Shown in pieces: positions 21,401 through 43,334 of a stretch of DNA of 64,000 nucleotides. The stretch spans positions 11,449,490-11,513,489 of the forward strand of contig CM021315.1 in NCBI GenBank assembly GCA_010645155.1, in the 5' to 3' direction. The notes beneath the pieces were generated by a model. That model was not told where the DNA came from. It worked only from the letters and a program-made list of their open reading frames with translations, and did not search any database. The translations under genes were made by a program, and so were the position numbers. Source of the DNA: Tigriopus japonicus (Eukaryota; Arthropoda; Copepoda; Harpacticoida; Harpacticidae). How positions within the stretch are numbered: position 1 is the first letter of the stretch; each line of letters opens with the position of its first letter.

Positions 21401-24400
21401 TTGTCATAGCTGGTTATAATTGTTTGGCCAATTCTTCATTCGGCTCCATGTTGAGAAACACTCGCTCTGTTCGATCGTATTAGAAAAATCAATAGCTTAG
21501 TAGCAATAAACCTCGCTCTGGGAGAGCGAATTAGGCCTTGTTCCGTGATTGGTCGGTCCTCAAAGCCACGACCTAATAGCTCCTAATGAGCTAGCTTCAT
21601 CTTGGTTCAAGTTTGAAATTCGAAAATCGTGGTCTAGCCTTATTAGAAGTCCACGTCATATTCCTAAATGAGGAGCCAATGATGATGTGTCGAGCAAAAC
21701 CAAACCGCAACCAACGAATGTTCGCTGTCTCTTGAGGAGACGCAGTCAAAATTCGGCTTGGTTTGAAAGAAAAAAAAGAGAGAGAGAGACCAAAGAAAGA
21801 GGTCGGCGGTCATTTGCTTGAAATGAGAGTGGTTGAAAATGGCTTCAATTTGTTTGATTGTCGTCCCCGAGGCTCTTTTGAAAGGCTTGTGGACGGACTG
21901 GATTGGGCTGTGTGGCTTTTTGCCGGTTATCATGACCGAATCTCATGACCGAAGGTTCTTTTTTTTCTTCGTTCCTCGTTTTAATTTTCAAAGGAGAGAA
22001 ATATTCAAGAAAATAAATCTTGTCGAGATGAAAGGACTCTGAATAATGAGGTCTGGCTCCATTGTACAATTACCATGGAAACCCTTTCGTGTGTGCGTGC
22101 ATGAATTCGAGAACATGCACTCTATTCACGGTGATTGACTTTGGATACTTCAATCTCTAAGTGGATCCACCAACCAACCTCTAATGACAATAATCGTCCC
22201 ACTCATTGTATTTGAATTCGTCTGATGTCGTCAATTACTTTCTTTCAGATCTTCAATCGCGATGAGCCTGACCGAGAGAAATTGGTTCATGTGACGGTCA
22301 AAGCCACCGATAATGGCCGACCTCAATTGGAGGACATTTGCACACTGGCTGTGAAAATTAAGGACAAAAACGACAACTCGCCCGTCTTTGATCGAGCTTC
22401 GTATGACGTCCCAATTGCCCAGGTAATATTTTACACATCATCCTGTACCTCTCCACAGGAAATGACGGACGTCTTTTCAAACCGAATCAAATTCAAATTT
22501 ACAGGACACCCTCACGGGCACTCAAATCATGAGAATCTCGGCTACCGATGTCGATGAAGGCGACAATCAAAAGATCACTTACACCCTCGACCCTGTCCGA
22601 ATTGCCGGGGACATTGACTACTTCAAGCTCAACAAACACACCGGAGTGGTGAATCTGGTCAACAAATTGGATAAGCCCGTGGGTTATGTGTTCCAATTCA
22701 AGGCCACAGCCACAGATGCGGGTTCTCCTCCCGAGAATGCCACCATTGATGTCACAATCGAGGTCAAGGAGTCCTCGAACAAGCCTCCCACTTTCGTAGA
22801 CGGTCCTGGGCCTGCCATTACTCTAAACGAGACCTACAATGACTTCTCCAAACCCATCGCCACTTACACGGCCAGGTCCAATATCCCCGAAGATGAGACC
22901 GTGTTCTTCCAATTGGTTCGAGGTCGCACCGAACAAACCAATAAGGACGACACTTTCCGCGCTTTGGCCAGTCAAAGCGAACCCACGGCTGTGCATATCT
23001 ATCTGGCGAAGCCGTTGGAGTACGAGAAAGTTGCCGAATACACACTGACCTTGCAAGTGCGAAACAGTCCCGATTTAGTGGCGGAAGCTTTGCTCACGGT
23101 TCGAGTTAAGGATGAGAACAATCAGGCACCCGTGTTCACCAATGTGGAATCGGGAAAAGTGTTGGAAAACGATGCCGCCGGGACGATTGCCATGCAAGTA
23201 TCGGCTGTGGACAATGATGGAACCTATCCGAACAATGCCGTGACGTATCATATCTCGTCGAGAAATCCGCCCGATATTCGAGACAAGTTCTCGATTGATC
23301 CAAAGACCGGAATCGTGACCACTAATCAGGAATTTGATCGGGAAGAGCAAAGTGTGTACGCTCTAACCATCGATGCCCAAGATGGAGCACCTTCATCGCT
23401 GCTCCAGAATGGCCAGCCCAATGTGACCCCGCAAAAGTTTCGTATTGCCATTGCCGATAAGAACGATAACCCGCCCTACTTCCCGCAGAAGCTATACAAA
23501 GCTGAAATTCCTGAAGATCAAGATGTGGGAAGCAAGGTCATTGAGGTTCGAGCCTCGGATAAGGACGAAGAGGCCTCGGTCACAGCCTATCAAGTGGTGA
23601 ATGGCAGTGTGGGTAATGTATTCACGATCGAAGAGCAAACCGGATTCATCCGCGTGGCCAAACCTCTGGATTACGAGATGATCAAGAAGTACTATCTCAC
23701 CATTGGAGCGTACGATGGAGAGTTTTCGAGTGAAACTAGTGTTGAAATCACCATCCTCAATGTGAACGACATGAAACCCGAGTTCAAACGTGACAAATAC
23801 GAGGTCGAGTTGTTCGAAGAGACCTTGCCCAATTATCCCTCGGTGACTGTTCAGGCCACGGATCCGGATATCGACGATCCCACCGTGCCACAAAATATCA
23901 CTTACTATCTCGATCCGGACAGTCAGACCTCGAGACATTTCAAGATTAACCCCGAAACCGGCGATATCCAAGTGGTGAAGGCGTTGGATCGAGATATGCC
24001 CAATGGTTTCCCTGTTTGGACAATGTACGTCTTTGCCAAGGACGAAAATGGCGGTCCCACAGGAATTGAAAACTATGTCGAGCTCATTGTAAAACTCTCG
24101 GATATCAATGACAACGCTCCCATCTTGGATATGCCGGATGGTTTGGTCTGGTACGAGAATCGAGGCCAAGGCGATGTTGGTGTCCTTCGAGCTACTGATT
24201 ACGACACGGAAGAAAATGGACCTCCATTCACCTTTTCGTTGGATGGGAACGCCAATCACGATATCAAGCAATGGTTCGAAGTCAATCAGAACAGTAATGG
24301 ATCGTACGTTTTGAGAGCATTGGTCACGTTCGATCGAGAGAAGCAGAAGCAATATGACATCCCCATCAACATTTGCGACAACAAGAACATGTGCGATGTC

Positions 24401-26975
24401 AGTATCCTCCCTCTGATAATCGGGGACGAGAACGATAACCCCATGGAACCTGGTAGTAGTGAGATTTTTGTGTTCAATTATGAAGGCCTGGCACCCGATA
24501 CCGAAATAGGACGCGTTTATGTGAACGATCCGGATGATTGGGATCTACCGGATAAGAACTTCCGATTCAAGGACCGTCAACAATGGGACGGCCAATTTGC
24601 ATTGGACCGAAACACGGGCATGATCACCATGAGACGCGGCATTCGACTGCAGGGCGAAATCACTACCTACGAAATCGAGTTCGTGGTCGAAGATCCCAAA
24701 CACAATCAAGTGGGACGATCCGCCGTTGAGGCTAAGGTCAAGGTGGTCATTCAAAAGATCCCCAAGGAAGCTGTGATCAAGAGTGGATCCATTCGAATCA
24801 AGGGTCCACCAGAAGACTTCATTCGACCTGATGCTAATGGATTCTCAAAACGGGACAAATTCACGACTCTCATGAAACGATACCTAAATGCGACGCATTT
24901 TGACGTGTTCACGGTTCTACCCGCGGGTCAAAAGGGTCAAATGACCGATGTGCGATTTGCCGCTCACGGTTCGCCTTATTACAAACCAGAGCGACTTGAA
25001 GGTGTACTGACTAAACGCAAGCATGACATGATGAAGTCCATGGGGATCGAGATCGATATGATCCACATTGACGAATGCATTTATGAAGGTGTCCATTGTG
25101 AGGGCGGATCGTGCACAAATCACTTGGATATTTCTCCAAATCCCGTGTCCATTTTCACAAACACCTCTTCGTTCGTTGGTGTTCAGGCCCGTGTGGTACC
25201 TCATTGTGGATGTGCCTTGCCCAGTCCCATTTTATCGTCCCCTTGTGATCCCAACCCGTGCTTGAATAATGGAACCTGTCATTCTTCCCGAAACAATCAG
25301 TACACGTGTGATTGTCCGGCCAATAATCCCGAGTTCTTTGGACCCAATTGCGAACGTCTAGCTGCTTCCTTCAATGGTCAAGGTTGGTCTTGGCATCCTG
25401 GATTACCTGCATGTGGCAACTCGCATCTCTCGTTCGTGTTCAACACTCAATTGGATGTGGGAACCCTCTTGTACACGGGTCCATCGCCCAATAACATTGT
25501 TGAGAATGTGGAAGATTTTATGGCTGTGGAGATCCGGAAAGGTCGACCACGGATGTTGGTCAATTTTGGCAGCGGAACCAAGATATTGGAATTGGAACAA
25601 AGAGTAAGCTCTTGATCATGTTCGGGATTTTAAGCATGGGCTCAAGTTCATATGATTTCTGTCCACAGGTTGATGACGGAAAAGATCACTTCTTGGTCAT
25701 TCGATGGACCAATGACACAATTCAAATAGAACTTGATCAAAAGACGTGCTCGAATGAAGTGAGTCCGGCACGAAATCAATGCTTCCTCCAAACTACGACC
25801 CATGAATGGACACACCACTATCTCAATACCAACAGTCCCCTTCACGTTGGTGGGGTATCTTTTGGTGGGGATCGATTTAGCGAGATTTCAAAATCCATCG
25901 GGGTAACAAGGTGAGCCATTCTTAGAAGTTTAACATCCAATTTTGACTTGTGTTCTTAACGTGTTCCTTTTTGCTTTGATTCTAGAACTGAAATGCCCGA
26001 TGGTGAAGGCTTTGCAGGTTGCATTCGGAATCTCACGTTCAATGGAGGTGGACGGAATACTTTATACGATTTAGGCAGTCCGTCGGATGGTGAGCATTTC
26101 ACTCCCGGATGTAATGATGAGTTTGTCCAGGCTGTGGTGGCCATTGGTCTCAACACCAACTTCCTCATTGGGATCCTCGTGTGCCTTTTGGTGATCCTCA
26201 TCATGGTCATTCTTCTTGCTGTGTATCGACGTCGCCGTCATGTGTTTGGGTAACTATCGCATATAAAGTTTCAATCGGTTTGGTTGTTTCATGTGAGGTT
26301 TGCTTCTAGTGACAAGGACATGGATTGCGATATCCGAGAAAATATCATCAACTACGAGGATGAAGGTGGCGGAGAAGGTGACCAAACTGGCTACGATCTC
26401 TCCGTCCTCCGAATGATGTCAGATGGAACACCCGCCCTTCATATGGGTGATCCGAAGAAAATGAGCAACTTCTACAATCAGCAAGAGCCTCCACCAGATA
26501 TCCAAACATTCCTCCAAACCAATAAAGTAAGCCCTGATAATCTCAATCAAGTTCCTGATCTCATGTTGTGAATTTTGTTTCTCAGGATCGTATTGATGGC
26601 GATCCGGACGCCACGCCCTACGACGATCTTCGTCATTACGCCTACGAAGGCGACGGTAATTCCAATGGTTCCTTGTCATCCCTGAATTCGGGCACCTCCG
26701 ATGCCGATCTCGAATTCGATTATCTTCACAATTTCGGGCCGCGTTTCAAGAAATTGGCCGATATGTACGGCGAGCAACCCGATTCTGAGGACGAATCGGA
26801 CTCGGATCAAGAGTACGACCACCATGGTCATCAATATCATCATAATCCGCATCACCCTCATTCATCTCAGCATCCGCATCATTTATCCAACGGGATGATG
26901 GGAGGTGGAAGCTCCTCTTCCATGCCTCCTCCACCCAAGCATCCGGGAGGAGTGCCATCCGAATCTTGGTGCTAG
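12475..26975 (+). CDS. CadN: classical arthropod cadherin, neural-cadherin (CadN)-like, 3' part of gene
   Basis: This is a calcium-dependent cell-adhesion receptor of the plasma membrane that links to the actin cortex through catenins. Exons read from the sequence are 12475-12596, 22249-22422, 22505-25603, 25669-25910, 25986-26249, 26310-26526 and 26586-26975 (stop TAG at 26973). All junctions are GT-AG and phases agree throughout, giving 1501 codons in the window. The first exon begins with two bases of a split codon, so the N-terminus lies outside. Domains in order are about eight cadherin repeats, a membrane-proximal conserved region, one EGF-like module, one laminin G domain, a transmembrane helix and a catenin-binding tail. 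The tail ([48 protein letters not shown]) resembles Drosophila N-cadherin more than DE-cadherin. A single EGF plus single laminin G set is instead the DE-cadherin layout, so the exact subtype is uncertain although the family is not. Confidence 0.92.
13232..13247 (+). repeat. A16 homopolymer
   Basis: Sixteen consecutive A in the large cadherin intron. It has no neighbouring retroposon features that I can recognise. Confidence 0.85.
18148..18269 (+). repeat. direct duplicate flanking an assembly gap, left copy
   Basis: These 122 bases recur at 18613-18734, directly after the N run, with two substitutions and no indel. Each copy abuts the gap on the opposite side: the left copy ends where the Ns begin, and the right copy begins where they end. 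This is the signature of an unmerged overlap or two haplotypes at a scaffold join rather than a biological repeat. Confidence 0.9.
18270..18612. other. assembly gap (343 N)
   Basis: A run of 343 Ns inside the large cadherin intron. Its size is an assembler estimate. Since its flanks are near-identical, the true gap may be zero or negative (overlapping contigs). No conclusion about content is possible, and open frames crossing it are artefacts. Confidence 0.98.
18613..18734 (+). repeat. direct duplicate flanking an assembly gap, right copy
   Basis: Second copy of the 122-base segment at 18148-18269. The two differences are aaccag versus aaccac near the start and gagacg versus gagaag in the middle, consistent with allelic variation. 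Confidence 0.9.
20401..20421 (+). repeat. TC dinucleotide microsatellite
   Basis: A perfect run of about ten TC units in the large cadherin intron, followed by a looser pyrimidine tract. Confidence 0.85.
22505..25603 (+). CDS. CadN: cadherin long ectodomain exon (cadherin repeats, membrane-proximal region, EGF, start of laminin G)
   Basis: One uninterrupted exon of 1033 codons, phase 0 at both ends (acceptor acag at 22501-22504, donor gtaagc at 25604). It encodes six consecutive cadherin repeats marked by linkers such as [30 protein letters not shown] and DENDNPMEP, followed by a last atypical repeat starting EIFVFNYEG. Next comes the conserved proximal segment (SGSIRIKG to VVPHCGC), an EGF-like module (six-Cys pattern around PCLNNGTCH and YTCDCP, about 25245-25350), and the first half of a laminin G domain ([11 protein letters not shown] onward). 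The linker [10 protein letters not shown] between two repeats lacks the acidic calcium ligands. The preceding exon pair 12475-12596 and 22249-22422 supplies one further repeat ending in [10 protein letters not shown]. Confidence 0.93.
25669..26975 (+). CDS. CadN: cadherin C-terminal exons: laminin G end, transmembrane helix, catenin-binding tail
   Basis: Four short exons (25669-25910, 25986-26249, 26310-26526, 26586-26975) separated by introns of 75, 60 and 59 bp. The first two finish the laminin G domain ([13 protein letters not shown], then [15 protein letters not shown]). The second also encodes a hydrophobic helix ([19 protein letters not shown]) followed by the stop-transfer RRRR. The third carries the juxtamembrane tail with the DEGGGEGD block, where p120-type catenins bind in this family. 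The last carries the beta-catenin-binding core, then a His-rich stretch ([14 protein letters not shown]) and a Gly/Ser/Pro end finishing in SESWC. The His-rich low-complexity end after the catenin core looks lineage-specific. Confidence 0.93.
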
Positions 26976-27638: not shown

Positions 27639-28627
27639 ACATGCCAAAAAATTGAGCTTGCGACCTTGATTTCCATTCCCCTCGGATTTTCGATTCTCAG
27701 CCCATTCAGACGACGAACATCTTCCTTGATCCCGTTAACGCTCAGTGGCGATGTATACTAAATGTACACATCAAGTAGTAATCGACTCATTTCTGACATG
27801 CACTCGCTTGTTCACTGGATGAGACAAGCACATGTCCTTACAGATCAAGAGGGCGAGAGCATTTACGGGGTCTATGAAGTATGAACGAGGCACATGTGTT
27901 TGTTCTTGCTTACTGTCCAAGCTTAGCATAGTACTTTACATATCGCTTAACTTTGTTAATACGGCAGTAATCAACCAAAGTCCGAAATCGGAGATTCTTC
28001 TTTAAAAGGTAGTATTTCAAGTTGGCGTAGGTACAGTTTATTACTATTTTTCAATTACTTGCGGGTTCTTAATGGAGCTTTAAGGAATGAAATCTCTTGT
28101 AATTCTGAATCAAAGGAAATATAGTTTCTAACCGACAACAGGATTCGAGCCCACGCCGTTTGAGGACGCACTTACACGCACTTTTAGTATTAGAAAATCC
28201 ACTTAAATATTTTTTTTTGTGCCAAAAACAACGTTTGTGAGAGGGTCAAAACATTTTCCAAGAAGTACAAAATCGAAAACAAAATTATGTAGAACATCAA
28301 TGAAAAATTAGATCGAAAGATGTGAAAAAAATATGTTTTTTGGCCATTTCAAACTTTACAGAAAACCACTTTATCCACATCTTCAACTTAACTTCTGGGT
28401 ATTCTGCTTTTTCCTGATTTTCAATACACGTGTGGGTTACAAGTGCATATGGGAGCATTGGAGTTTGGGCTGGCAAAGAGATTTGAGGGACCGGTCCAGG
28501 CGGAGGAGTTGGGTGTTCCTTGAACGAGAGATACCTTGCCAAAAATTGCCCTCGTTTGACTTGTTCCCTTGCACTTGAAGTGACTTGTATTTGCAGTTTG
28601 CTTTTCAGATCAGAACATCCTCGTAAT

Positions 28628-31600
28628 ATGAGTATTATTCGGAAGGAAATTGCAGCCAAATGCGAATTCACAATATTTGACGTTGTTCTCAAACCCAAAG
28701 CAAACCGAATATCGCCAGAACTCCCTGCCAAGGTCAAGGTAAGACCTTCAAAAAAGCCTAACCCCTCTGAAGGTTGTTCCGTTTCGATGACCTTGCTTTG
28801 CTCACTTTTCAGTTTCGATTAGATCATCGCAATCGTCATTTGGTGACCTCAAGTAAAGATTATGATGGCGCTTCATTTTCCTCGGGAGATGGATCCTACA
28901 GTTTGGAATGGAGCCCTCCCGAAACCATTGGAGCTCCAGTCACTCTTTATTCCAATAATAAGGCGGATAAGATCCAGAATAAGATGTGGAACCTCCAATT
29001 AATCGGCACGTTCAAGTCCGACCAAGGCGATCTCAAAGAAGTGGTTCTGGGGAAGAAGGAGTTGGATCTCGGTCATCAATATAAAGAGGATTGCTCTCGA
29101 TTGGGCATGATCACATTGCTCTCTCCGGATTCCAGTGATTACGAATGTCAAGTGAGATTGAGATTGTCTGTGGATATCTTGGACGATGTGGATGGGGATC
29201 ATGCTCCCAAACAACGGACAATTCGGAGAATCCCACAGATCATCGTGGATGACAAGAAGCATTCGTGTGTGCTTTTGCTCGGAACAACGGGCACGGGCAA
29301 AACTAGTACCATGAATATCTACACGGGCAATAATTTGCCCACGGGCAGTGACGCTCATTCGGTGACCAGTGAAACAGTGTTCTGTAAAGATCTGATTCAT
29401 CCACAAGGCGTGGCTTGGATTGATAATCCGGGTAGGAAGTTATGGTTTAGGGTTGATCTGAAACGTTTGCTCTGGCATAACTTAAATTTAGGGTTTTATT
29501 TAAAATTCAAAGAATCAATCAATCACCCTTGAGCATTTTTCTTAGAATATTTAAGTACAATTGCCTCCGAAATTATTCTTCCTCTTGCTAAAATTAACAA
29601 TTTTCCCTTTCTCTACTAATAGAGACCTAGAATTGAGCTGAGTAATGATTAGTTTGTAACAGTGTGAGCACTTTTGGAGATTGAATAATTCATATATATT
29701 TAATTTGTTTTTCAAATTTGGTACAAGATAACAAAATTAAAATTTTGGTAGATGAAACATTTTGCCCCCTCCCTAAACCCACAGATAAACAAATTATTCC
29801 GAAGCATTTTGGGCACTTATTGCATTATTTATGGGGATTTTGGACCGTTCATTCCTTCAAGTGAGGCTCTTTTTTTTAATTTCCTCCATAAGTTCTCATT
29901 GGGATTTAGGATTCAGGATTCTGTGCCAGCCAGTCCAAAACTTTAACCCCAATGGAATAAAACCAATAAGGCCCAATCTTGGCCGTATACTGGCATTGTT
30001 ATGCTGCTTGAAATATCCTCATATCTGCACACGGTATTTCAAAAATGGCTATTTAGGTTTGGATCGAAATACCCAAAGAGATTTTGGCATTTTTTAGACT
30101 TACAATTCAATGGGAACAACTTAACTTTTATTGTATTATTTATGTTTAGGTCAAGGGAACAAATTATATACCGAAAAACCTACTTAAAAAACTTTTTGAA
30201 AGAACTGCTATTCAATCCATATTTAGAGACCATTTAGTTACCCATTGAATTTGAATTGTCTGAAAAAATGTCTTTGGGTATTTTGATCCAAACCTAAAAA
30301 GCCATTGAAACGCCAGTCGCAGCACTCGGACAGATTGCCTCATTTGGAATTAGAAGAAGAAAAAATAGGTGATACAACCAGGATGAAAATAATTACTTAT
30401 CTAATGGGGCAATAAAATTTAATAGAATTTGAAAAAGCTTTATTAAAATTCTTGGAGCCGATTCATTTTCGAATGTGTAAAATGTTTTTATCAAGTATTT
30501 TGACGTTAGAAAATTAATGCTCTAGGAGCGAAACTTTTTTGGGAACATAACTGGATTTGCATTATTGCGATACAACCCTGACTACTATTGTTTGTTGGCA
30601 CTTGAGCTCTATTCGGCCCAAAAGCAGAATTGTTCCATGAATTATTAGTATCTTTTAGGATGGTCCGATACTGAAGGACGGTCTGATGCGGCAGTGTTCA
30701 AGACTCTCTTGCGGTTTCTCCAACGAACTGAGGCCTACAATATCCAAGCTGTGATTTGGAACGTGCTTCCTCAACCCCGGATGGACTCGACTCTACAGAG
30801 ACAAGCCGCATTCATTGACATGTTCACGGTGGACGAAGCCAAGGGCAAAATTTGGACAAAGGTACCAACTAGGGTCAATGAATAAGTGTTATTGCCCAGT
30901 AACAGAATTTTGAAACCCTAGGTTATTATTGTAGCCAAAGGCGGGAAACAAGCCGATGAAGATTGTTTAGGAGCCAAGATGGCTGCCAAGAAACAATTCG
31001 TACATGCTGAACCCACGTGTTTATCATATGAGTTTGTCACGCCAGAAATACTCGAAGGTACTTCCAAAGAACTTCGAACGGAACAACTCCGGATGCTCAC
31101 CGATCTAGAGATTCGCAAGGAATTGGAAAAGGCCGTCGAAGATCTTGGACCCGATCCCGTGCAAGTGGTTTTTGCCAATCAAAGATGCGAGGATTGTGGT
31201 CAGGTGAGTTTGCTCAACGCCCATTATTACATACATCTGGTTCTCATTGTATTTTTAGTAGGTGAGTTGTTGACTACGTTAGCAAAGGTACTTATGTCAC
31301 TCTTCTGTTGCATCCAGAGTAGGAGTTTCTATTATCCAAGAATGAAGAAACTGAAAGCGAAACATTTTTTAAGGTTTTTGTCGGTTTGCATTTTTTTTCA
31401 TTTTGGAACCTTAACGTTTTTTGAAAGTATACTTACATTGCATTCAAGTGTGTTTGCTAATGTAATGAACTATTTGCCCACTGAGCAGATCCATTTACAC
31501 TACATTTGCGTACCATTTCTTTTAACTGTTGATATATGATGAATGAAAAGCACTTTTTATTCATGATTTAGTTCATTCAAAAATGCACTAACTAAAGTTG

Positions 31601-32123
31601 TTAACAAGTAACCTGTAAAAGTTATCTCTCTTCTTAGACGGGAGATCCTAGATTGATGGATGACCGCTGCCACAAGGAACGCGTTCTGGGCCATATCGGC
31701 CAATTGGAACAACGCTTTCCTAAGGCAGCCGTGGCAGCTTCCGTAGCGGGCAGCGTCCTCGGAGCCATTGGTCTAGGTGCGGCATCCTCAGTCGCACCAG
31801 GGGCCGAGGTAGCCTTGGCCGGTTTACCCATGGTTCTCGCACCTGGTGCCATCTGTTCCACCCACCGCCTCCTCAATTCAGAGTCTCAAGAAGAAGGTGG
31901 TCTTTGTGTCAAAATCCACGATATGAGATGGTCCTGTTGTCGGAAAGGAGAGAAATCAACGGGCTGTACCTTCAAATGCACGTGCGGATTGATTTGGGGC
32001 AATAGCCCACCGTGCATTCTCATCAAGCATCCGGATCCCAACGCTGCCAAGGCCATGTCTGAATATGAAGTGTTCAAAAAAGAACATACACTCGTGGATA
32101 TCAATATGGTTGTATCAGCTTAA
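28628..32123 (+). CDS. AIG1/GIMAP-like P-loop GTPase with N-terminal C2-like domain and Cys-rich tail
   Basis: Exons are 28628-28738, 28813-29431, 30659-30861, 30922-31203 and 31638-32123; phases agree and the product is 566 residues. The start is the ATG opening MSIIRKEIAAKC; a 5' non-coding exon is possible. Residues 5-160 are beta-rich and resemble NT-C2-type domains (FTIFDVVLKPK, LEWSPPETIG, QLIGTFK, LGKKELDLGHQY). A Walker A motif follows, LLLGTTGTGKT (194-201), then a DNPGWSD segment at the G3 position. The usual NKxD/TKxD motif is not evident; VIIVAKGGKQADED lies where it would fall. Residues 432-476 are Gly/Ala-rich and hydrophobic, possibly membrane-associated. The tail 495-531 has eight cysteines (CC, CTFKCTC). 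The G-domain order and ATP/GTP loop are seen; nucleotide preference, localisation and role are not known. It has no signal peptide, so it is probably cytosolic or peripheral to membranes. Confidence 0.72.
29432..30658 (+). other. GTPase gene intron 2
   Basis: A 1.2 kb AT-rich intron that splits the codon for the Gly of DNPG (donor gtagga at 29432, acceptor ttttag ending 30658). It hosts the inverted-repeat element at 30046-30304. No other content is recognised. Confidence 0.8.
30046..30304. mobile_element. MITE-like inverted-repeat element
   Basis: The outer 34 bases (30046-30079) match the reverse complement of 30271-30304 at 32 positions. The similarity continues inward, with small indels, to about 30112 and 30244, leaving roughly 130 bases between the arms. 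Weaker symmetry also extends about 15 bases outward. The core of the left arm (aggtttggatcgaaatac, then ccaaa) occurs a third time at 37926-37948, so the sequence is dispersed. No target duplication is clear and there is no coding capacity. Confidence 0.65.
31204..31637 (+). other. GTPase gene intron 4
   Basis: A 434-base intron (donor gtgagt, acceptor ttcttag) between the putative G-domain end and the Gly/Ala-rich C-terminal exon. Nothing else is recognised in it. Confidence 0.8.
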
Positions 32124-32606: not shown

Positions 32607-34185
32607 ATGATCATGAAATACGGTGTGATCTTTTCTTTGTGTTGTTGGATTACTTTGGTTGGAGGTTCTGAAGGCGCAATTGTTGATTGCGTTACGGAGG
32701 ATAAGAAACAACCTTGCTTGTTTCCATATCAATATGAAGGCTCATTGAGATTTGAGTGTGTAAAGTTATCTTCCCGCAGTAGAAAGGAATCTTTTTGTCC
32801 AACTTCTACTGACGATCAAGGAAAAGTGAGTGTTATTGTTGTAAGTTTTGATGTCATTCTGGTTTGCTTGAGGATTGTTTTTTCAGCCTTCAGAATGGGA
32901 ACAATGTGGATTCGAGTGTCCCATGCAAAGATATCACACTCACGACGAAATACGTTCCGAGTTCAAGGATTTGGTTAAGGAATTTCCAGACCATTCAGAG
33001 ATTTTTTCCATCGGAACCTCCAAACGAGGTCATGATCTTTTTGGAATTCGTATCAGCCACGATCTCAACAGAAAACCGAGCAAGTTTGAATTCCGACCAC
33101 GTGTGAAGCTGATTGGAAATATGCATGGCAATGAGGTTTTAGGTCGAGAGATTCTAATCCATATGGCAAAATATCTGCTTCTGGCCAATCAATTCCAGGA
33201 TCCACAAGTGCAAAACATACTTGCCAATATAGATTTATACATTCTTCCCTCCATGAATCCTGATGGTTTTGTCCGAGCTAAAAAAGGGCGTTGTATCGGC
33301 GAAAATTATTGGTCCGGCCGATTAAACGAAGGGTTCCAAGATTTGAATCGAGATTTCCCCAATTGGTGGGATTGGAACCATTATCGGAGCAACACTTCCT
33401 ATGACATTTTCGCTAAACGCCAACCTGAGACCAAAGCAGTGATGAATTGGACCATGAATGGATACTTTACCTCGTCCCTGAATTACCATGATGGAGCGGT
33501 GGTGGTGAGTATTCCGTGGGAAAACTACCACGGTGCCACCCAAAGGCGTGGTCCATTTGAAAGTCCAGATCAAGATGTGTTGTACCATTTAGCTACCTCG
33601 TACTCTCTCAACCATAAGACCATGAACGATACTGCCAAAGCTTGTCCCAAATGGGGCACTTTTGACAACGGTGTGACTAATTCCGCCGATTGGTACGTGG
33701 TGAATGGAAGCATGCCGGAATTCAACTATCTGTTCACGGGGACCTTTGAGATATTGGTTGAAGTGTCTTGTTGTAAATATCCAGCTCCATATAAACTGGT
33801 TAGTGAGTGGGAAAATAATCGCAATGCAGTCCTGGCCTTTTTGGAACAATCCTTTGGGAGAGGCATTCTAGGAGTTGTGACCGATTCCAGGGGCAGAGTT
33901 ATCCAAGATGCTAGAATTTTGATCCGCGATGTCCGACGCAGTCCGAAAGCTGATCAAGATGATGATGATCATGATGGAGATTGGAATCGGGTTCCGGTGA
34001 GATCAGATGCACGTGGAATTTACACCCGGATAATCACTAAACCAGGCGAATATGAAGTTGTCGCCTACTTGGAAGAACGGAATTCGGAAGGACTATTTGA
34101 AGTGAAGACCATGTCCAGACCTCAAGTGCTTAAGATCACTGCCAAGAACGCGCGATTAGAGCGGATCGATTTTGTTATTGCTTGA
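32607..34185 (+). CDS. secreted M14B metallocarboxypeptidase with N-terminal FN2-like module
   Basis: Two exons, 32607-32825 and 32887-34185, give 505 residues. The start is an ATG giving MIMKYGV; a second Met is two codons on. A signal peptide (VIFSLCCWITLVGGSEG) leads to a fibronectin type II-like module (about 28-87; PCLFPYQYEG, FEC, FCP, WEQC). A full M14 carboxypeptidase domain follows, with zinc ligands H153, E156 and H274 (GNMHGNE, NYHDGA), substrate residues N227-R228 (DLNRDFP), Y354 and catalytic E365 (VEVSCCKYP), so it should be active. A transthyretin-like beta domain closes the protein (about 398-505), with an acidic insert DDDDHDGD. In the M14B family such enzymes remove C-terminal Lys/Arg from peptides outside the cell. 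No GPI signal or transmembrane tail is seen, so it is probably secreted. It is a paralogue of the gene at 36557-43334. Confidence 0.9.
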
Positions 34186-34251: not shown

Positions 34252-35550
34252 CAGATGTTTAAAAAAGTTTGAAATTGTAGCATCAATTCTCAAGCCCCAC
34301 CAACGGAATGTTTGAAAGAGACATCTCTCAAAACCTCTGCATCCTTTTGCTGCTTTGATTGCCAAATATTTAACGATTCGTTATGAATGATTCATGGGCT
34401 CTACTTGTGGACTATGATAAAATCTTAATACAGTGCACTAATTTTTACTACCTGACCGGTAATAACAAAAGTATAATAATGCATTCTTTTTTTCGCAAAA
34501 GTAACAATAGACGCGTTTCAGGTGTAACGACCCAAAAAGTAACTTATTTTTCTCATTGTAACAACAATCGCCATTAGTATTGTAATCGCAATCCAATACT
34601 CACATCTTTCGAAATCAAGTTTGTTTACTTTCCAGTCACCCAAATTACTTTCCAAAGCATAGCTATATATCTGTCAGCCCTTTTCGGTAATACGGTAACC
34701 TAGGTTTTCTCAAAAAGCATCATGTTTGGGTCCAAAACCCTCTGAAACCCAATTTTATAGTGTTCTTCACACTAGATTTGTCAATTTTAGCATTTTTCGA
34801 GTTTGAAAATGGCCCTTTATTGTGTACATTTCGTCTACCCACTCAAAGCCGCTTTTTAACTGGCTTTCTCGTCGGCGAATTGATGAAATTTATGTTGTTT
34901 ACTTATGGTACTCAGTCAGATAAGAGATCGATGAATCTGGTATTTTGGTAATCGATTAGGGATTCCCAGAAAACGAAAAACCAGAAGACCTATCTCAGAA
35001 GAGAGAGTACATTTATCAATTACAAAGTGATGCTTAGTTCTTCGGGGGAATTCTCGATTTTGCCAGTAGACCGGATCTCCTGGTTTATCTCGATTACAAA
35101 TCGCAATAACTCCATTGTTCTCAATTATTAGGTGCGCTTCAAACAAGGTTAATTCTCTCTCGTTTTCCCGTGACGGGCGTTAATAATAGAAAAATTAGAC
35201 ATAAGGAGCTTGCGTTTTAAAAAAAAACGATTTGCAAACTCAAATTACCTGTGGCTCTGGAGTTATTTCAAATGAAAGTCCATGAAAACAAGGCCTCCAT
35301 AACTTTGAACATTTTTCTGACAGTCTGTGGTTTCGTTAGAAATTCGACAAGTTTATTAATTTGTGTGTTGTGACCAAATAGTTTACTCAAATGGTTTTAT
35401 TGCGATCGTTAAACATTTGATTTGTCTTTAAGAGTCTCGAGCCTGTACACAAGTCGTTTTGAACCGGAAAATAATTACATAATCAACTCCTAATTCATTG
35501 CCTTGGTTTCGTCACCGCAAATAGTCGCTACAAATTCCTTTGCTTAATAA

Positions 35551-35778
35551 CCTTTTAACAATTTGGAAAAAGCTAGACCCATGTCTACCAACTAACACAG
35601 TTCTGAAAAACTTTTGTTTTTAAATGCCTTTAAACAATTTGGAAATAGCTAGACCCATGTCTACCAACTAACACAGTTCTGAAAAACTTTTGTTTTTAAA
35701 AGCCTTTAAACAATTTGGAAATAGCTAGACCCATGTCTACCAACTAACACAGTTCTGAAAAACTTTTGTTTTTAAAAG
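35551..35778 (+). repeat. three-copy 76-bp tandem repeat
   Basis: Units start at 35551, 35627 and 35703, each exactly 76 bases from the next and opening with a cctttaaacaatttgg-type motif. Units 2 and 3 are almost identical; unit 1 differs at a few bases near its start. The low divergence suggests recent expansion. There is no coding potential and no tie to the flanking genes. Confidence 0.92.
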
Positions 35779-36556: not shown

Positions 36557-39500
36557 ATGGGAGGAAACTTAATGTTGACCGTTTTGTGGATCCAAGGATT
36601 GTTGGTTGTCTCCTCTGGAATTACAATTCCACGGAGTGAGCCTCTAAATCAACCAAACTACAACTTGGGAGACTGGAAAGACCATCCCAATTGTGGACGA
36701 TCTGGCAATGAACATAAAGGTAAGACTTATTTTTTTTTGAATGGCTTTTTAATGTTAAAAATTAACAACTTGTACAATGCATAGTATGTTAATAAATATT
36801 ATTCACATAATCAGGGTTATTTCATCGAAATTCAAAACTAATGGATAATCCAAAAACAAAATTGTAGATTTGGGATTTATTAATTTTCAAAGAGGTTTTC
36901 ATTTTTTTCGACAACCTACGGTAATTTCTCAATTTTTTTTCTACGTTACACGCTTGTAAATTTCACTGTTCCAGATATTCCTGACAAATAGTAAATGAAA
37001 ACCATAAAGGTCTCTTTGACTTTTTGAATTACTGGTTTGAGTTTGATACAAGTTGGTTACCACTTCAAAAACTGAATGCTGACTGATAAGGCCGCACGTA
37101 ACATGATCAATTTCTTTGATTTTAATGAATTCATGTATCCACCCATTTTGCATAAACCCATCCATAAATCTATCCATGCATGTTTTTCTTCAATGTGGAC
37201 GAATTAAGACCAACCCTGCTTATGTGACTTGATATTAGAGATGAACTGAATGAGCTTTCGGCCCAAAAGCAAACATGCACTGAAAAGTGACAGGTTTAAA
37301 AGAAAACTCGATGTGTTTTACCTTAAAAAAGCCTCTGAAACAACTTTTTTTATATCAACTTATAATTTGGCTTCTTCTATCCTAATTGCATTATAAATTT
37401 TAAGGAATGGTTATGGCTTCTTTCGACCTCTTTCGTCCTCTAAGTCTTCTTTCAAGCGAAGCTTTAGCTTTCGGTTTCAATTAGTCCCTTCCGTTCATCA
37501 CTATTTGATACATCCTTCTAGAATACCTTAGTACACTTAGTAGTAGCAGAAGTAAGTACTATTTCTAATAGTGCATATCTTACAAACCAACGTTCCGGCA
37601 TTTGTGACAAAAAATAATCTCATTCCAACAGGGTAAATATTGGTGTGAATGTGAACAAAGCGCTCTTTTTTGGAAGTGTTCTTGACTTTGCTTTGTAAAC
37701 AGGCATCACCATCGAGATCATGCAAAATTGTGAGAACAGTCTTAAATTTGTGGGTTATCAGATGTTCTTTTGTAGAACGTTCATGCAACCAACGATCTAT
37801 GGTAATCTCAAACCCGTAGAATGAATACAATACGTCTGTGATAACACAGAGTGCAAAAGGGAGGATATATCTAAATTAACGTCTTTTTATTTTATTAAAG
37901 AATACAATGTTTCAAATGGTTCGTGAGGTTTGGATCGAAATACCCAAATGCAACATGGTTATTTTTGGACCAACGATACAATGAGGAACACCTATTCTTT
38001 TATGGTTTTACCAATACATAGGTATGCAGAGCTTAGAAACAATCGGTCGGTTGTTGAGGTAGTTTGGAAGTTTCGCAGAAGCAAATGGGACAGAGGAGAA
38101 ATAATCATGCTCTATCAAGTTTTGCTACAGAACATAAGGTGTGACCAAAGAACGCAGCTTATGTAGTGAAACTTGACCAAGCATGGTTATCTCTACTCCG
38201 TCTCATATGCGTCTTTTGTGTTTCCTCTAGCTATGCTTCTACTAAACTTCATAACTACTTCAACAACCGACCTTATGTTTGATTGGTTATTACAAAGGAT
38301 ATCAATTCTTTTTGCATTAGCATCATTTGTCCGCAACTATAAGTCTAGGGAAACTTAACATGCCTGAAAAAACTACTAACAAAATATTTTTTGAATTTTC
38401 AAAGACTTTTCCGAGTACATTTTTAACCCGTTGAGAACTGAGTAAATTGAGTTTTAACCCAAACAGCCCCAAGATGCCCCAGTTATTTCAAAACATAAGT
38501 TCCCAAAGATGTCACATAACATTTCAATATTAAGGATAGAAAAATCATTTTTTTCTAAATTTTGTCAAAATAGCTCAAAATGATACATAATTTCACTTAA
38601 TCACTTAAAATGCGCTAAAGGCATTTCTTTTTTGACAAAAACAATTCTTAACTATTTAGAGAACCATTAGTTGTGTGTGCAACCAACAAAAGTTGCAAGG
38701 AAATCTGTAGCACGGATTCATTTTCAAAGTTACGATTTCTTGAAGGACTGTGTTCAAAACGGACAAAGACGGAGACCTGAAAAATCAATCGATTTTTTCA
38801 AAAAAAATATCTATTTAGAAGTAAACTCAAAGTGTCTTTGACACTGCAAAAAAGGATATCATTAAAAATTGTATATCAAGACTGAAACTTGAAAAGCCAT
38901 TTGAGACACTGCACTGTGGGAAGAGGTTAGCTTTTGTCTCCAGTTTTAAGATGTTCTTGAAGGGAACAAAATTTTCGTGCCCGCTTGAAGTGGTTAACAA
39001 TTCGTGTGATTCCATAGCCAATGTTTTTCCACTTTTTGTTAGTGTTTTTTGCACTGTTGTTCATTTACCTTTATCCATGGCCGATGACTGAGAACTAGTT
39101 ACCTTGGAAGCACATTATTTTTTTGCATGATCGCAATTCAGCATGCTCAATCAATGTTCGCAAAGTGAGTTTAACCTTCAAAGTAAAACCTTTTTTTCTT
39201 CGCAATAGCCGTTTCACTGAACATCATCTGCAACACTTTATCCAAAAGAGACAAAGTTAATGATGAATACCGATTCCTTCTTTGACAACTTCGAATGTAA
39301 TACTTGTGTCATTAAAAGAAAATTTAAACGCGAAATAAAAAGAAATAGTCTCACCTTCCATTAGTATTTTTACTTCATACCCGTCCCCCCAAATGGAAAT
39401 CCTTTTCAGAGCTCGAAAAGGGCCTATGGGCTTCTCGACCAGTATGTCGGTTTCAATAACTTTTGACTGATTAGGTAGTTTGTCTATAGTCTGCCACAAA

Positions 39501-42500
39501 TATCGCTGGATTTTCCTTGTATGACAAGAAGGTTTCTACTCTTGTTGCACTTAGGACATAAATCACAAAACAATGATGTTTCAACCTACAAAGAATATTT
39601 CCGTTGAGCAAATTCAAAATTCCAATAATCTCTAGAATCAGAAAAAATATTTAGCGTTATAATAAATACTTATGCAAGTGAAAGAATGGCTTTATGAAAT
39701 TCAAGAAGGTGAGAACTAAAAACCATGATTAATTTGACCAACGCAAAAAGTTCTCTGATTCTTCTCTCCGTTCACCAAAATATGACGTCAATCTTCAATC
39801 TTAAAATTAATACTTTATTTGATTAAGACAAAAGCAACAAAAACGCATACAGGGCGTAAGATATCTAGAAAATGTGCATTTCGCCACAACTTCGTCGAGA
39901 TTTCTTTCTCGTGGATTGTAAGTTGCCAAGTCGTTTGATGGCCTGAAATATTGGAGCGGAACGGAAAAAGGGAAAGAACCACGATCAAAATCGGTCAACT
40001 GACTTGCCAAAACACAGACTCATTCCAAATGGTTGATGGATCTCTACTACCTGGAAATTATCCCGTTGCCAAAAAAATCCATGCTTTGAGCACGCACACA
40101 GAGAGATCCAAGAATTGGGCCACTAAACGATTCATCACGTCTGTATGTAGACGAAGACTAATCGTGCTGGTTATTTCTCGACAACACTGTCCATTGAAGC
40201 GAGCTTGGCCAAGATGGTCCATTATCTAAGAACAGTGCTTCTTTTAAGACATCCCTCTAAAATGTTGCAAAAATATAACGCGTTTGTGTTTTTTTTTCTT
40301 CAGATCCTTGGTTCGCGTCCATTCAAGTCGAGCCCAGTCAACGTGAGGAACGACTTTGTTCCGCCATTCTTGTGACTCAAAGTCATCTTCTCACTTCCAA
40401 CTGTCCCTCTTTGGCATCCATTCGACCAGACAATGACGCGCTTTGGGTGGACTTTGAGAATCACGGGGAACGGATCAAAGTTTCCTTTGAACCTGAGGCC
40501 ATTTTCAGCACCAACGCCAGTGTGTTCTTGCTCACATTGGAGCGTCCCATTCCAAGAAACAGTCCCATTGTTCCCATTTGTATGCGTCAACAATCTTTCA
40601 AAGATCTTGAATCACTTGGGGAACGCACGGTAGTCTGCCAGGAAAATGGAGGTCTCTTCAAGTGTCAAAGTTCAGCGGACTGTTCCTTCGTTACAATTGA
40701 TGTGGGTTCCAATGGGCAATCTTTGCTCGGGATCCATCTTCCATCAAGTGTTGAGGGATGTCAAGAAGTCAATGAGGGGGAGGAATCGCTCCTTCGACCT
40801 TCAGAGCAAATGAGTGAGCTCTTAAGCAAGATCCAACCCATTGAAGCTTGTCCCAAGGCCTCGTTTTGTGATGGCAAAATCACATGTTCCCACGATCCAT
40901 CGCCCAGATCCAAACGGGTGGGACGCTCACAAGAGATTACATTTCCTCTGGCAACCAACATGTGCCCAGTTTATGAAATGTGCTCTGATCGATCGGACGA
41001 GTCTGAGTTCCAATGGGTTCAATTGCACATGTCAATCGAGCAGCTTTCAAAGGAATGCCAAACTAAAGAGGCTTCCTTTGTCGATGCTCGAATAAGAGAT
41101 GAAATTCCGACCCAATCGTCATCGAGGCCGGAGAAATCGCCATTCCGACAAGCGTTGGAGGCCAATGCAAGCGGAATTGACGATTATGACTCGTATGACG
41201 TCGACAAACCTGAGATCCAAGATCAAGTCGAACTCGATTTGACAATAGATTCAACGAGAAGGACGAGCAATAAAAACGGTTCCTTGCCAGAATTTGCTCC
41301 TGAGCCGGATTATGATGTACTTGAAAAAGGTGAATGGGAAAAGACCAAATCATTAAGCTGAGTCAATGCGTAAGATTATTCATTCAAATTATAGAAGCCG
41401 GTGATCCTTGTGACGTCACGCCTTCAAACGGAGCAAAATGTCAATTCCCTTTTATGTACGATGGAGAAGTTCGTCATGAATGCGTACGAGATGTGTCCCA
41501 ATTCAACCATGACGATTCAATGTGCCCTTCAGAAATTGATCCTAACACCCAAGAGGTCAGTATTTTTAGTCATCCATTCAAATTAAACATAAATTAGACC
41601 CTGAAAGAAGATTCGAAGAGCATAAAAAGTTGAGAATTTTCTTAAATACTCTGTTTGTGGATGTCATCAAATTAACCGGCAATATTTTTCTAACCACAAC
41701 AAACGACAAGAAATAGGTAAAAAATTTAAAGGAAAAAATTTTTGTTTTGCGCTTCTGGATATAAACTCTTTTTTTTAGTGCCACTTGTTACGTATTGTAC
41801 TACGCACGCTACTTTTTGTCTACATTTTTTTCTTCGAACTCATGCATTTCATAAATATTTCCAGGGTGTCAAATGGGTCAAATGCACCGAATCTTGCCCT
41901 CTGGAGAAATATCACGCCCACCATGAGATTGAGAAAGACTTGAGGTATTTGGAAGATCTCTATCCGGATCACGTCCGTGTGTACGACATTGGCACTTCGG
42001 TGAACGGTGAGCCATTATGGGTGATCAATTTGAGTGCCAATCTCAATAACCGCTCCATAACGGAAACGGAGCAGTTCCAACTCAGACCTCGGGTCAAATT
42101 CATTGGAAACATGCACGGAAACGAACCCGTGGGTCGTGAGTTGCTCATCCATTTGGCCAAATACTTGCTGAAGGGCCACGAACAAAACGATTCCGAAGCG
42201 ACAAACATCTTGGAAGAGATCAATCTATCTATCTTGCCCACTATGAATCCGGATGGCTTTAGCCGAGGAAATGAATCCTTTTGCTCTGGAGGAACCTATG
42301 AGAAGGGCAGACTCAATGAAGGTCGCAAGGATCTGAATCGTAACTTCCCCACATGGCTTGATTGGCGCAGATCTCGCAATTCTCCGTTTGATATCGAGGC
42401 TGGTCGAGAGAAAGAGACCCTCCTTCTTATGGACTGGATCATGAAGGGCTATTTCCATTTGTCAGCCAATTTCCACGACGGAGCAGTTTTAGTGAACTAT

Positions 42501-43334
42501 CCATGGGACAACTACCACGATTCAGAACCGCGTCATGGTATCTATGGAACGCCGGATCACGACGTGTTTGTTTCTTTAGCCAAATCTTACTCCTTAAACA
42601 ATCGAGTAATGGCAGACCCTAAAAAGCAATGCCTCCAATGGGGTCCTTTTGAGAACGGAATCACCAATGGAGCCGATTGGTATCCCGTGGAAGGTGGAAT
42701 GCAAGACTTCAACTACATGTTCGCAGGTACGATGGAGGTCCTGGTTGAAGTTTCTTGCTGCAAGTACCCTCCACGTAAAGAACTACTTATCCACTGGAAC
42801 GATAATCGTCGCAGTCTCTTAGCTTACACGAAACAAGCTCTTAAAGGGATCAAAGGATTTGTTCGCGACTCTGCTTCTGATGAGCCGATCAAAGAGGCTA
42901 AAATTGCTGTAAAATCCGACGGAGAAACTGACTTTAGAGAGTTTCCCGCGAGATCCGATCAGCACGGGGCCTATCGAAAGATTCTCCAAAATGAAGGCCA
43001 ATACACTGCTTATGCTTTCATCGAGGCAAGGAACCAAAACAGAAATGGAAGATTTGAGATCGTGGCCAAATCGGAGGAGAAAACCTTTAAATTTGACCCA
43101 TCCGAGTCCGAGGCTCAAAGGATCGACTTTGTTATCGATAGCCAGAGGGCGTCGACATCGAGGCAAAAACAATCGCGCCGCGTTTCAACCTCCCAAAACG
43201 TATTTCTGGGTTTCAACTATCCCGAGGAAATTCAGGGAACTGTTCCATTGGACCCTCCCAACCGACGTCGTCGACAACCCAATAATGTGCGAACCATCCC
43301 GGGGACATTCCGACGAAGATGGACCCTGTCTTGA
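36557..43334 (+). CDS. secreted pseudo-trypsin / FN2 / M14B carboxypeptidase fusion
   Basis: Exons 36557-36719, 40304-41329, 41395-41555 and 41865-43334 join in phase to give 939 residues. Order: signal peptide (LMLTVLWIQGLLVVSSG); short linker with a lone Cys (PNCGRSG); degenerate trypsin-like domain (about 55-250); Cys-containing and acidic linkers (about 250-396); FN2-like module (about 397-459); M14B carboxypeptidase (about 460-790); transthyretin-like domain; and a basic, Gln/Arg-rich tail. All M14 key residues are present. The serine-protease triad is not. The FN2-M14 half copies the neighbouring gene in layout and intron position, so the two arose by duplication, with gain or loss of the protease-like part. 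A furin-type site (RSKR, 256-259) could separate the halves after secretion. Weakest point: the 3.6 kb first intron could hide an in-phase exon. Confidence 0.85.
37236..37503. mobile_element. non-autonomous hAT-like element
   Basis: A 268-base element with ends TAGAGATGAACTGAA (left) and TAGTGATGAACGGAA (right, read on the other strand). It is flanked by imperfect 8-bp duplications, cttgatat and tttgatac (6 of 8 match). Ends of TAGNG type and an 8-bp duplication are typical of hAT transposons. It has no coding capacity. The interior resembles the element at 49669-49946. Confidence 0.65.
37926..37948 (+). repeat. third copy of a dispersed terminal motif
   Basis: Twenty-three bases identical to part of the left arm of the inverted-repeat element at 30046-30304 (aggtttggatcgaaatac plus ccaaa). 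I see no matching inverted partner nearby, so this may be one end of a decayed copy. Confidence 0.6.
40304..41329 (+). CDS. pseudo-trypsin exon of the fusion gene
   Basis: A single 1026-base exon. The segment DPWFASIQVEP, LCSAILVTQSHLLTSNC has the order of a trypsin-fold start (PW..I, CGGSLI, LTAAHC), but Asn87 stands where the catalytic His would be. The NDIALL position reads NASVFLLTLERPI, with no Asp, and no GDSGGP-like Ser motif exists (TIDVGSNGQSLLGI lies where it would be). The R/IVGG activation cleavage motif is also absent. It is therefore a non-catalytic serine-protease homologue, probably for binding. The second half has Cys pairs (ACPKASFCDGKITC, NMCPVYEMC), a dibasic RSKR, and an acidic, Ser-rich linker (DDYDSYDVDKPEIQD). 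The fold call rests on pattern reading of a diverged sequence. Confidence 0.72.
41395..43334 (+). CDS. FN2 module and M14B carboxypeptidase exons of the fusion gene
   Basis: Exon 41395-41555 encodes most of an FN2-like module (KCQFPFMYDG, HEC, SMCPSE). Exon 41865-43334 completes it (VKWVKCTESCP) and continues into the M14 domain. Zinc ligands are H534, E537 and H654 (GNMHGNEP, NFHDGA), substrate residues N608-R609 (DLNRNFP) and Y734, and catalytic E745 (VEVSCCKYP). The transthyretin-like domain runs from GIKGFVRDS to RIDFVID. A 45-residue basic tail (RRRRQPNN, ending FRRRWTLS) has no counterpart in the neighbouring paralogue. The exon break inside FN2 falls at the same place and phase as in the 32607-34185 gene. 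Confidence 0.9.

Follow-up and report, generated by a model that had tools for sequence, protein, structure and literature searches.

A copepod gene placing a putatively dead, trypsin-derived domain in front of an intact M14 carboxypeptidase

We describe a gene of the copepod Tigriopus japonicus that lies in a stretch of 64,000 nucleotides (assembly GCA_010645155.1, contig CM021315.1, positions 11,449,490 to 11,513,489, forward strand); we call this stretch the window and give coordinates within it. A single mRNA encodes a signal-peptide-like start, a domain that appears to derive from trypsin and has lost the catalytic triad, a six-cysteine segment, an acidic linker, a divergent FN2-like module, and an M14 metallocarboxypeptidase whose zinc, substrate, and catalytic residues are all kept. 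The same domain order, with the triad lost and the extra domain conserved, occurs in a protein of a second copepod. The named modules are all known; their order is new within what was searched. One chain joins the opposite ends of proteolysis: a dead domain from the family that makes Lys/Arg ends and an enzyme from the family that takes such ends away. Should the dead domain steer the enzyme, the gene would offer a natural test of how a pseudo-protease chooses its partners, and a built-in control adjoins it: the tandem paralogue, which shares the FN2-M14 body and lacks the dead domain.

One gene and one spliced transcript

The four exons (Table 1) join in frame across GT/AG borders and leave an open frame of 939 amino acids plus a stop codon. 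Transcript evidence consists of a database protein, P0001 (934 amino acids, source 'lgn'), and the size of its longest contig, 3,309 bases. P0001 is identical to the model at 926 of 934 positions, without gaps, from model residue 6 to the last, and spans all 3 junctions. Since the exons stretch over 6,778 bases of genomic DNA, the introns cannot fit into the contig, and the sequence must come from one spliced mRNA. An earlier sequence-only reading of this DNA had joined the exons in phase into one gene, rather than two, and had looked to cDNA across them; P0001, as protein and contig size, bears it out, and the protein of the second copepod has the same order. The N-terminus resembles a signal peptide by eye. 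Exon 2 finds a single match in its own genome, which is itself.

All 8 amino-acid differences between P0001 and the genome fall in exon 4, with none in residues 6-481; this could reflect a chimeric assembly or else polymorphism that is uneven.

A trypsin-derived domain with an eroded second barrel

The pseudo-trypsin starts within exon 1, at about residue 40 (about 36674), and ends near residue 233. The sequence-only reading had let the trypsin-like part run to residue 250; residues 234-323 form a separate segment. Residues 21-233 alone score 19.5 bits against Trypsin PF00089 (E=9.1e-4, profile positions 3-112 of 220), under the cut-off of 20.6, and this family gave no match with the whole protein, with exon 2 alone, or with the counterpart in the second copepod (P0108, below). 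The suggested Pfam comparison yields, in short, a partial and sub-threshold signal.

Comparisons between profiles give a clearer picture of the first half. A two-sequence profile set against 10 trypsins of the same genome scored 92.5% in hhalign, with 50 column shuffles at or below 1.55% and other shuffles at or below 1.18%. The first half alone scored 93.1% (50 shuffles at or below 1.36%), and the second half alone 3.3% (shuffles at or below 1.85%). Against 37 bacterial trypsins the whole domain scored 26.9% (shuffles 7.5%), the first half 36.7% (shuffles 1.15%), and the second half 0.54%, under its best shuffle (1.66%). A global alignment of the trypsin-like domain scored 88%, versus 0.6% when shuffled. 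The presence of the N-terminal barrel is well supported. In one of our alignments (A4) the second barrel lacks about 60 residues, and its own sequence signal amounts to the 3.3% and 0.54% just given. A cysteine motif, CQSSADC, falls on the Ser195 loop both in A4 and in the global alignment; the second half as a whole is placed differently by A4, A5, and A6.

The columns of A4 that correspond to His57, Asp102, and Ser195 hold N, S, and A in this gene, where the bacterial trypsins have His in 37 of 37, Asp in 37 of 37, and Ser in 36 of 37; the Ser195 column is assigned from the weaker, second-half alignment. Neither the His-Asp-Ser triad nor the GDSGGP of an active S1A protease is kept, in agreement with the earlier claim that all 3 residues are lost. 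The corresponding positions of P0108 are L, Y, and P in a pairwise alignment. An AF2 structure model matches chymotrypsin-fold chains, a result of limited weight because its input alignment, A4, held trypsins; confidence in the second half runs from 33 to 65 per block. Structure prediction, which had been proposed as a check, speaks for the fold with that bias and says little for its second half. Taken together, the exon-2 domain is best read as trypsin-derived, with the first barrel kept, the second eroded, and catalysis predicted to be absent. Of the trypsin fold that had been claimed, the first barrel stands, and the second is short and has no sequence support of its own.

The six-cysteine segment and evidence of constraint

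Between the pseudo-trypsin and the acidic linker lies a segment that the sequence-only reading missed. It holds 6 cysteines, all common to P0108. It matched no Pfam family, and a second copy was not found in its own genome. The segment contains the motif RSKR at residues 256-259. In P0108, RSGR lies within a few residues of that place and aligns with RVGR at 259-262 of this gene.

Identity between the gene and P0108 is 86/188 (46%) in the pseudo-trypsin and 39/84 in the six-cysteine segment, compared with 18/69 (26%) in the linker (Fisher one-sided p=0.003 and p=0.007, respectively). The pseudo-trypsin shares 7 of its 8 cysteines with P0108. The triad positions differ between the species (N/L, S/Y, A/P), and the surrounding blocks are kept. 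Because the dead domain exceeds the linker in identity and shares cysteines with P0108, it is constrained and presumably kept for something; conservation says nothing on what that is.

The FN2-like module and the M14 enzyme

Exon 3, or the module alone, scores 25.5-26.1 bits against FN2 (cut-off 22.2), over profile positions 1-24 of 42, and 19.2 bits within the whole protein. Cysteines 412, 426, 440, and 457 form the four-cysteine pattern, and the P0108 module is sub-threshold at 15.4 bits. The FN2-like module of the sequence-only reading is recovered above the cut-off when exon 3 is taken by itself, as a divergent form covering 24 of the 42 positions.

The M14 domain exceeds its Pfam cut-off (194.1 bits, cut-off 21.6, E=5.2e-57) and forms a single stretch. 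Motifs and alignment to 3 solved relatives assign zinc ligands H534, E537, and H654, substrate residues R599 and R609, Y734, catalytic E745, and Asp665, so that every zinc, substrate, and catalytic residue is kept, as had been claimed. We take the tyrosine to have its usual role and Asp665 to be the position that sets basic specificity; the paralogue has Glu there. The corresponding roles of H69/E72/H196, R127/R145, and E270 are those of a table in PMC11266112. Cleavage of C-terminal Lys/Arg is the probable specificity on this basis.

Five solved chains match at E<=1e-10: 3mn8 (Drosophila LP15968p), 9j6z (carboxypeptidase D, CPD), 1h8l (gp180 503-882), carboxypeptidase M (CPM), and carboxypeptidase N (CPN). 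We presume that 3mn8 is a CPD and 1h8l the duck CPD. The third zinc ligand is followed by HDG in the gene and its paralogue, versus HGG in the 3 aligned solved chains. A transthyretin-like (TTL) domain is sub-threshold in P0108 (30.7 bits, cut-off 32.3) and in the paralogue (20.8), and none is called in the gene itself; the alignment with Drosophila 3mn8 extends to exon-4 residue 385. The C-terminal 63 residues hold 13 Lys and Arg and 3 Asp and Glu, and no membrane anchor is seen by eye.

A second copepod and the scope of the search

When the full model was run against 5.8 billion proteins, 2 matched at E<=1e-3: P0001, and P0002, another M14 protein with 28% identity over 36% of the query. Residues 390-770 of P0001 returned 2,348 proteins at the same threshold; among the best 120 of these, which are the matches described here, most named entries are carboxypeptidase D. 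P0108 is Tk04319 in EukProt and carries a MAKER gene name. We take it to come from Tigriopus kingsejongensis, going by its Tk prefix. Gene prediction in that species used MAKER, and 91.5% of its genes had RNA-seq support (genome paper, in the part consulted, PMC5467011); this gene is not mentioned there.

P0108 is identical to P0001 at 434 of 917 positions (47%), over nearly the full length and in the same domain order, so the search for this order in other copepods that had been proposed did find one. Its M14 domain is 63% identical to that of this gene, against 48% to that of the tandem neighbour, as expected for an orthologue. Within the proteins searched and the best 120 of the 2,348 matches, only P0001 and P0108 carry the architecture. 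A P0001+P0108 profile found no third member in a protein search that took its words from the first 500 residues and required shared five-residue words. Given this word-based search and the 120 matches considered, members that are distant or carry a wrong annotation may have escaped.

In literature on the architecture, its parts, and Tigriopus genomes, which included portions of PMC5467011, PMC10828956, PMC11266112, PMC7201535, and PMC10540698, we recognised no description of this protein; most subscription papers were beyond reach, as were other copepod genomes. Within these proteins and this literature, the earlier suggestion of an undescribed architecture holds.

Comparison with known systems

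The gene shares its M14 zinc, substrate, and catalytic residues with CPD, CPM, and CPN of M14 subfamily B. CPD has 2 or 3 M14 units and a membrane anchor, whereas this gene has one M14 unit and, by eye, no anchor; it also has HDG where the 3 aligned solved chains have HGG, and N-terminal modules not seen elsewhere. Its own genome holds a separate CPD-like frame with several M14 matches, on C35. Some secreted M14B proteins do carry noncatalytic modules in front. Carboxypeptidase Z has a frizzled domain there; this gene has a dead trypsin and FN2 instead. In Pfam searches at E<=10, where HMMER filters remove most matches above about 0.1, neither frizzled nor CLIP domains matched the whole protein or its pieces. 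AEBP1 and CPXM have a discoidin domain in that place (PMC11266112, in part); unlike theirs, the M14 residues of this gene are intact.

Among serine protease homologues (the CLIP-SPH cofactors, Protein Z, and the beta chain of HGF), this domain stands apart: it lacks a CLIP match, is fused to a metallopeptidase with intact residues, and has a shortened second barrel. With FN2-containing copepod genes the gene shares the FN2 module, here placed before M14. In the salmon louse FN2 is the most expanded domain, with >200 copies in >80 genes, and the word carboxypeptidase is absent from the main text of that paper (PMC7201535).

A positioned carboxypeptidase and its rivals

Tryptic cleavage leaves a C-terminal Lys or Arg, which M14B enzymes take off; tethering a trypsin-derived domain to such an enzyme would make biochemical sense. 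We favor a model in which the product is a secreted carboxypeptidase of the M14 regulatory group (B, or N/E) that acts on Lys/Arg ends and is positioned by a pseudo-protease exosite. A noncleaving trypsin-derived domain, a six-cysteine segment, a flexible acidic linker, and an FN2-like module would precede the enzyme. The dead domain would bind the contacts of a trypsin-like protease (a cascade protein, an inhibitor, or a cleaved substrate), and the tethered carboxypeptidase would trim C-terminal Lys/Arg exposed by tryptic cleavage; the FN2-like module and the basic tail may help to hold the protein on matrix or surface. Taken whole, the model has in our judgment an even chance of being right: secretion is suggested by the N-terminus, specificity by the M14 residues, and an exosite role by analogy, as serine protease homologues have a cofactor role in a fly cascade (PMC10540698, in part). 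That the dead domain serves for targeting or as a cofactor, as had been proposed, is plausible. Going further, the dead trypsin might enter a cascade as a stand-in for a protease ('decoy-and-trim') while the tethered M14 trims basic ends; substrates, cofactors, or inhibitors would bind the decoy, and one protein would both sense and rewrite tryptic products. Both the stand-in and its binding are conjectural, and we rate them unlikely; no fused sensor-trimmer of this type turned up in the literature on the architecture, its parts, or Tigriopus genomes.

Several observations weigh against the exosite model. With no sequence support of its own for the second barrel, the exosite surface may not resemble that of a protease. 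The half-profile match of FN2 in this gene and the sub-threshold one in P0108 make FN2 ligand binding doubtful. A cut at RSKR (256-259) could part the dead domain from the enzyme, and the pseudo-trypsin shows lower conservation than M14 (46% versus 66%, p=1e-5). The motif also underlies the chief rival: the dead domain and six-cysteine segment may be a removable pro-region, serving silencing or folding and cut at RSKR by a furin-like enzyme or a cascade protease. RSKR lies within a conserved cysteine-rich stretch, P0108 has its RSGR nearby, and processing is known for M14A enzymes and for many serine protease homologues. M14B enzymes, however, usually need no pro-region, and the tandem paralogue is without one; P0108 fits only a loose R-x-x-R at a shifted site, and cysteines flank RSKR on both sides and could hold the pieces together. 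We regard this account as improbable but worth keeping in mind.

Alternatively, exon 2 may be a passive, decaying relic of a shuffled-in trypsin exon, with M14 doing all the work. The lost triad, shortened second barrel, and near-invisibility to Pfam fit such decay, but the exon is open over 1,026 bases, is present in P0108, shares 7 of 8 and 6 of 6 cysteines with it at an identity of 46% against the linker's 26%, and has zero P0001 differences, so that we find decay rather unlikely. Nor do we give much credence to the idea that the exon-2 domain has a different, beta-rich fold and is trypsin-like in its first half only: scores of the second half near or under shuffles, its low model confidence, and the disagreement of the 3 alignments favor it, but the 93% of the first half against at most 1.4% shuffled, the global alignment, the cysteine motif on the Ser195 loop, and the AF2 match, biased as it is, make it distinctly improbable. 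Most improbable by far is that a protease-homologue gene ending near 41361 was joined to a separate FN2-M14 gene. Unspliced, exon 2 would indeed run on to a stop at 41361, and the neighbouring gene is FN2-M14 alone; yet P0001, on its 3,309-base contig, crosses the junction and P0108 has the same order, and this idea, contradicted by both, would survive only through artefacts in 2 independent sources.

The tandem paralogue and stepwise assembly

The likely history of the gene can be read from its neighbour and its genome. The paralogue (Table 1) has a phase-0 intron where the main gene has the one that separates exons 3 and 4, and its M14 domain is 51% identical to that of the gene. It starts 490 bases past the end of the preceding long frame (32123), so that an exon such as exon 2 could hardly be hidden in between. 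A module flanked by introns of the same phase can shuffle into a gene without a frame shift, and the phase-1 introns on both sides of exon 2 are a signature of such shuffling. An FN2-M14 gene may have been duplicated in tandem, with one copy gaining exon 2 by phase-1 exon shuffling, which suggests stepwise assembly within one copepod genome: M14, then FN2-M14, then pseudo-trypsin-FN2-M14.

The genome holds 51 M14 places and, at E<=10, 62 FN2 places; only in the window's 2 genes do both lie within 10 kb, and the next nearest pair is 70 kb apart. Among the matches listed, no trypsin place comes closer than 122 kb to an M14 place. The parts are thus common and the combination rare. A tandem M14 pair on C8 (G000:C8:6039687-6044022, minus strand, L003 and L005) has HDG like both window genes, and no FN2 was found in the frames examined; the HDG-bearing genes are possibly a copepod-specific M14B subgroup.

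Table 1. Features of the gene and its tandem paralogue (window coordinates)
Feature	Position	Strand	Basis
Exon 1: start codon, signal-peptide-like N-terminus (by eye), linker, NCG motif before the trypsin-like domain; phase 1 donor	36557..36719	+	
Exon 2: pseudo-trypsin, six-cysteine segment, acidic linker; 1,026 bases, both flanking introns phase 1	40304..41329	+	
Exon-2 part of pseudo-trypsin, residues 56-233 of 939	40306..40839	+	Profile, alignment, and model comparisons
Six-cysteine segment, residues 234-323	40840..41109	+	
Acidic linker, poorly conserved, residues 324-396	41110..41329	+	
Exon 3: divergent FN2-like module	41395..41555	+	Pfam
Exon 4: M14 (residues 472-766, about 41928-42812), possible TTL domain, basic tail, stop	41865..43334	+	
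Paralogue exon 1: FN2-like module after a signal-peptide-like start; trypsin-like domain absent	32613..32825	+	
Paralogue exon 2: M14 and TTL-like part	32887..34185	+	

Other observations

Elsewhere in the genome FN2 lies just upstream of trypsin on the same strand, on C34 (43367, 43667), C15, C19, and C3, which suggests an FN2-trypsin gene family. Upstream of the main gene, at 35544-35778, stands a tandem array with a 76-base unit (3.1 copies, 96% matches). The frames at 28600-32123 (+), upstream of the paralogue, probably belong to a multi-exon gene and show by eye a P-loop-like GTTGTGKTS. At 22466-26571 (+) large open frames look cadherin-like by eye and include an EGF/laminin-G-like part, and a run of N, masked or a gap, lies within 18264-18728 and is read as X in the frames.

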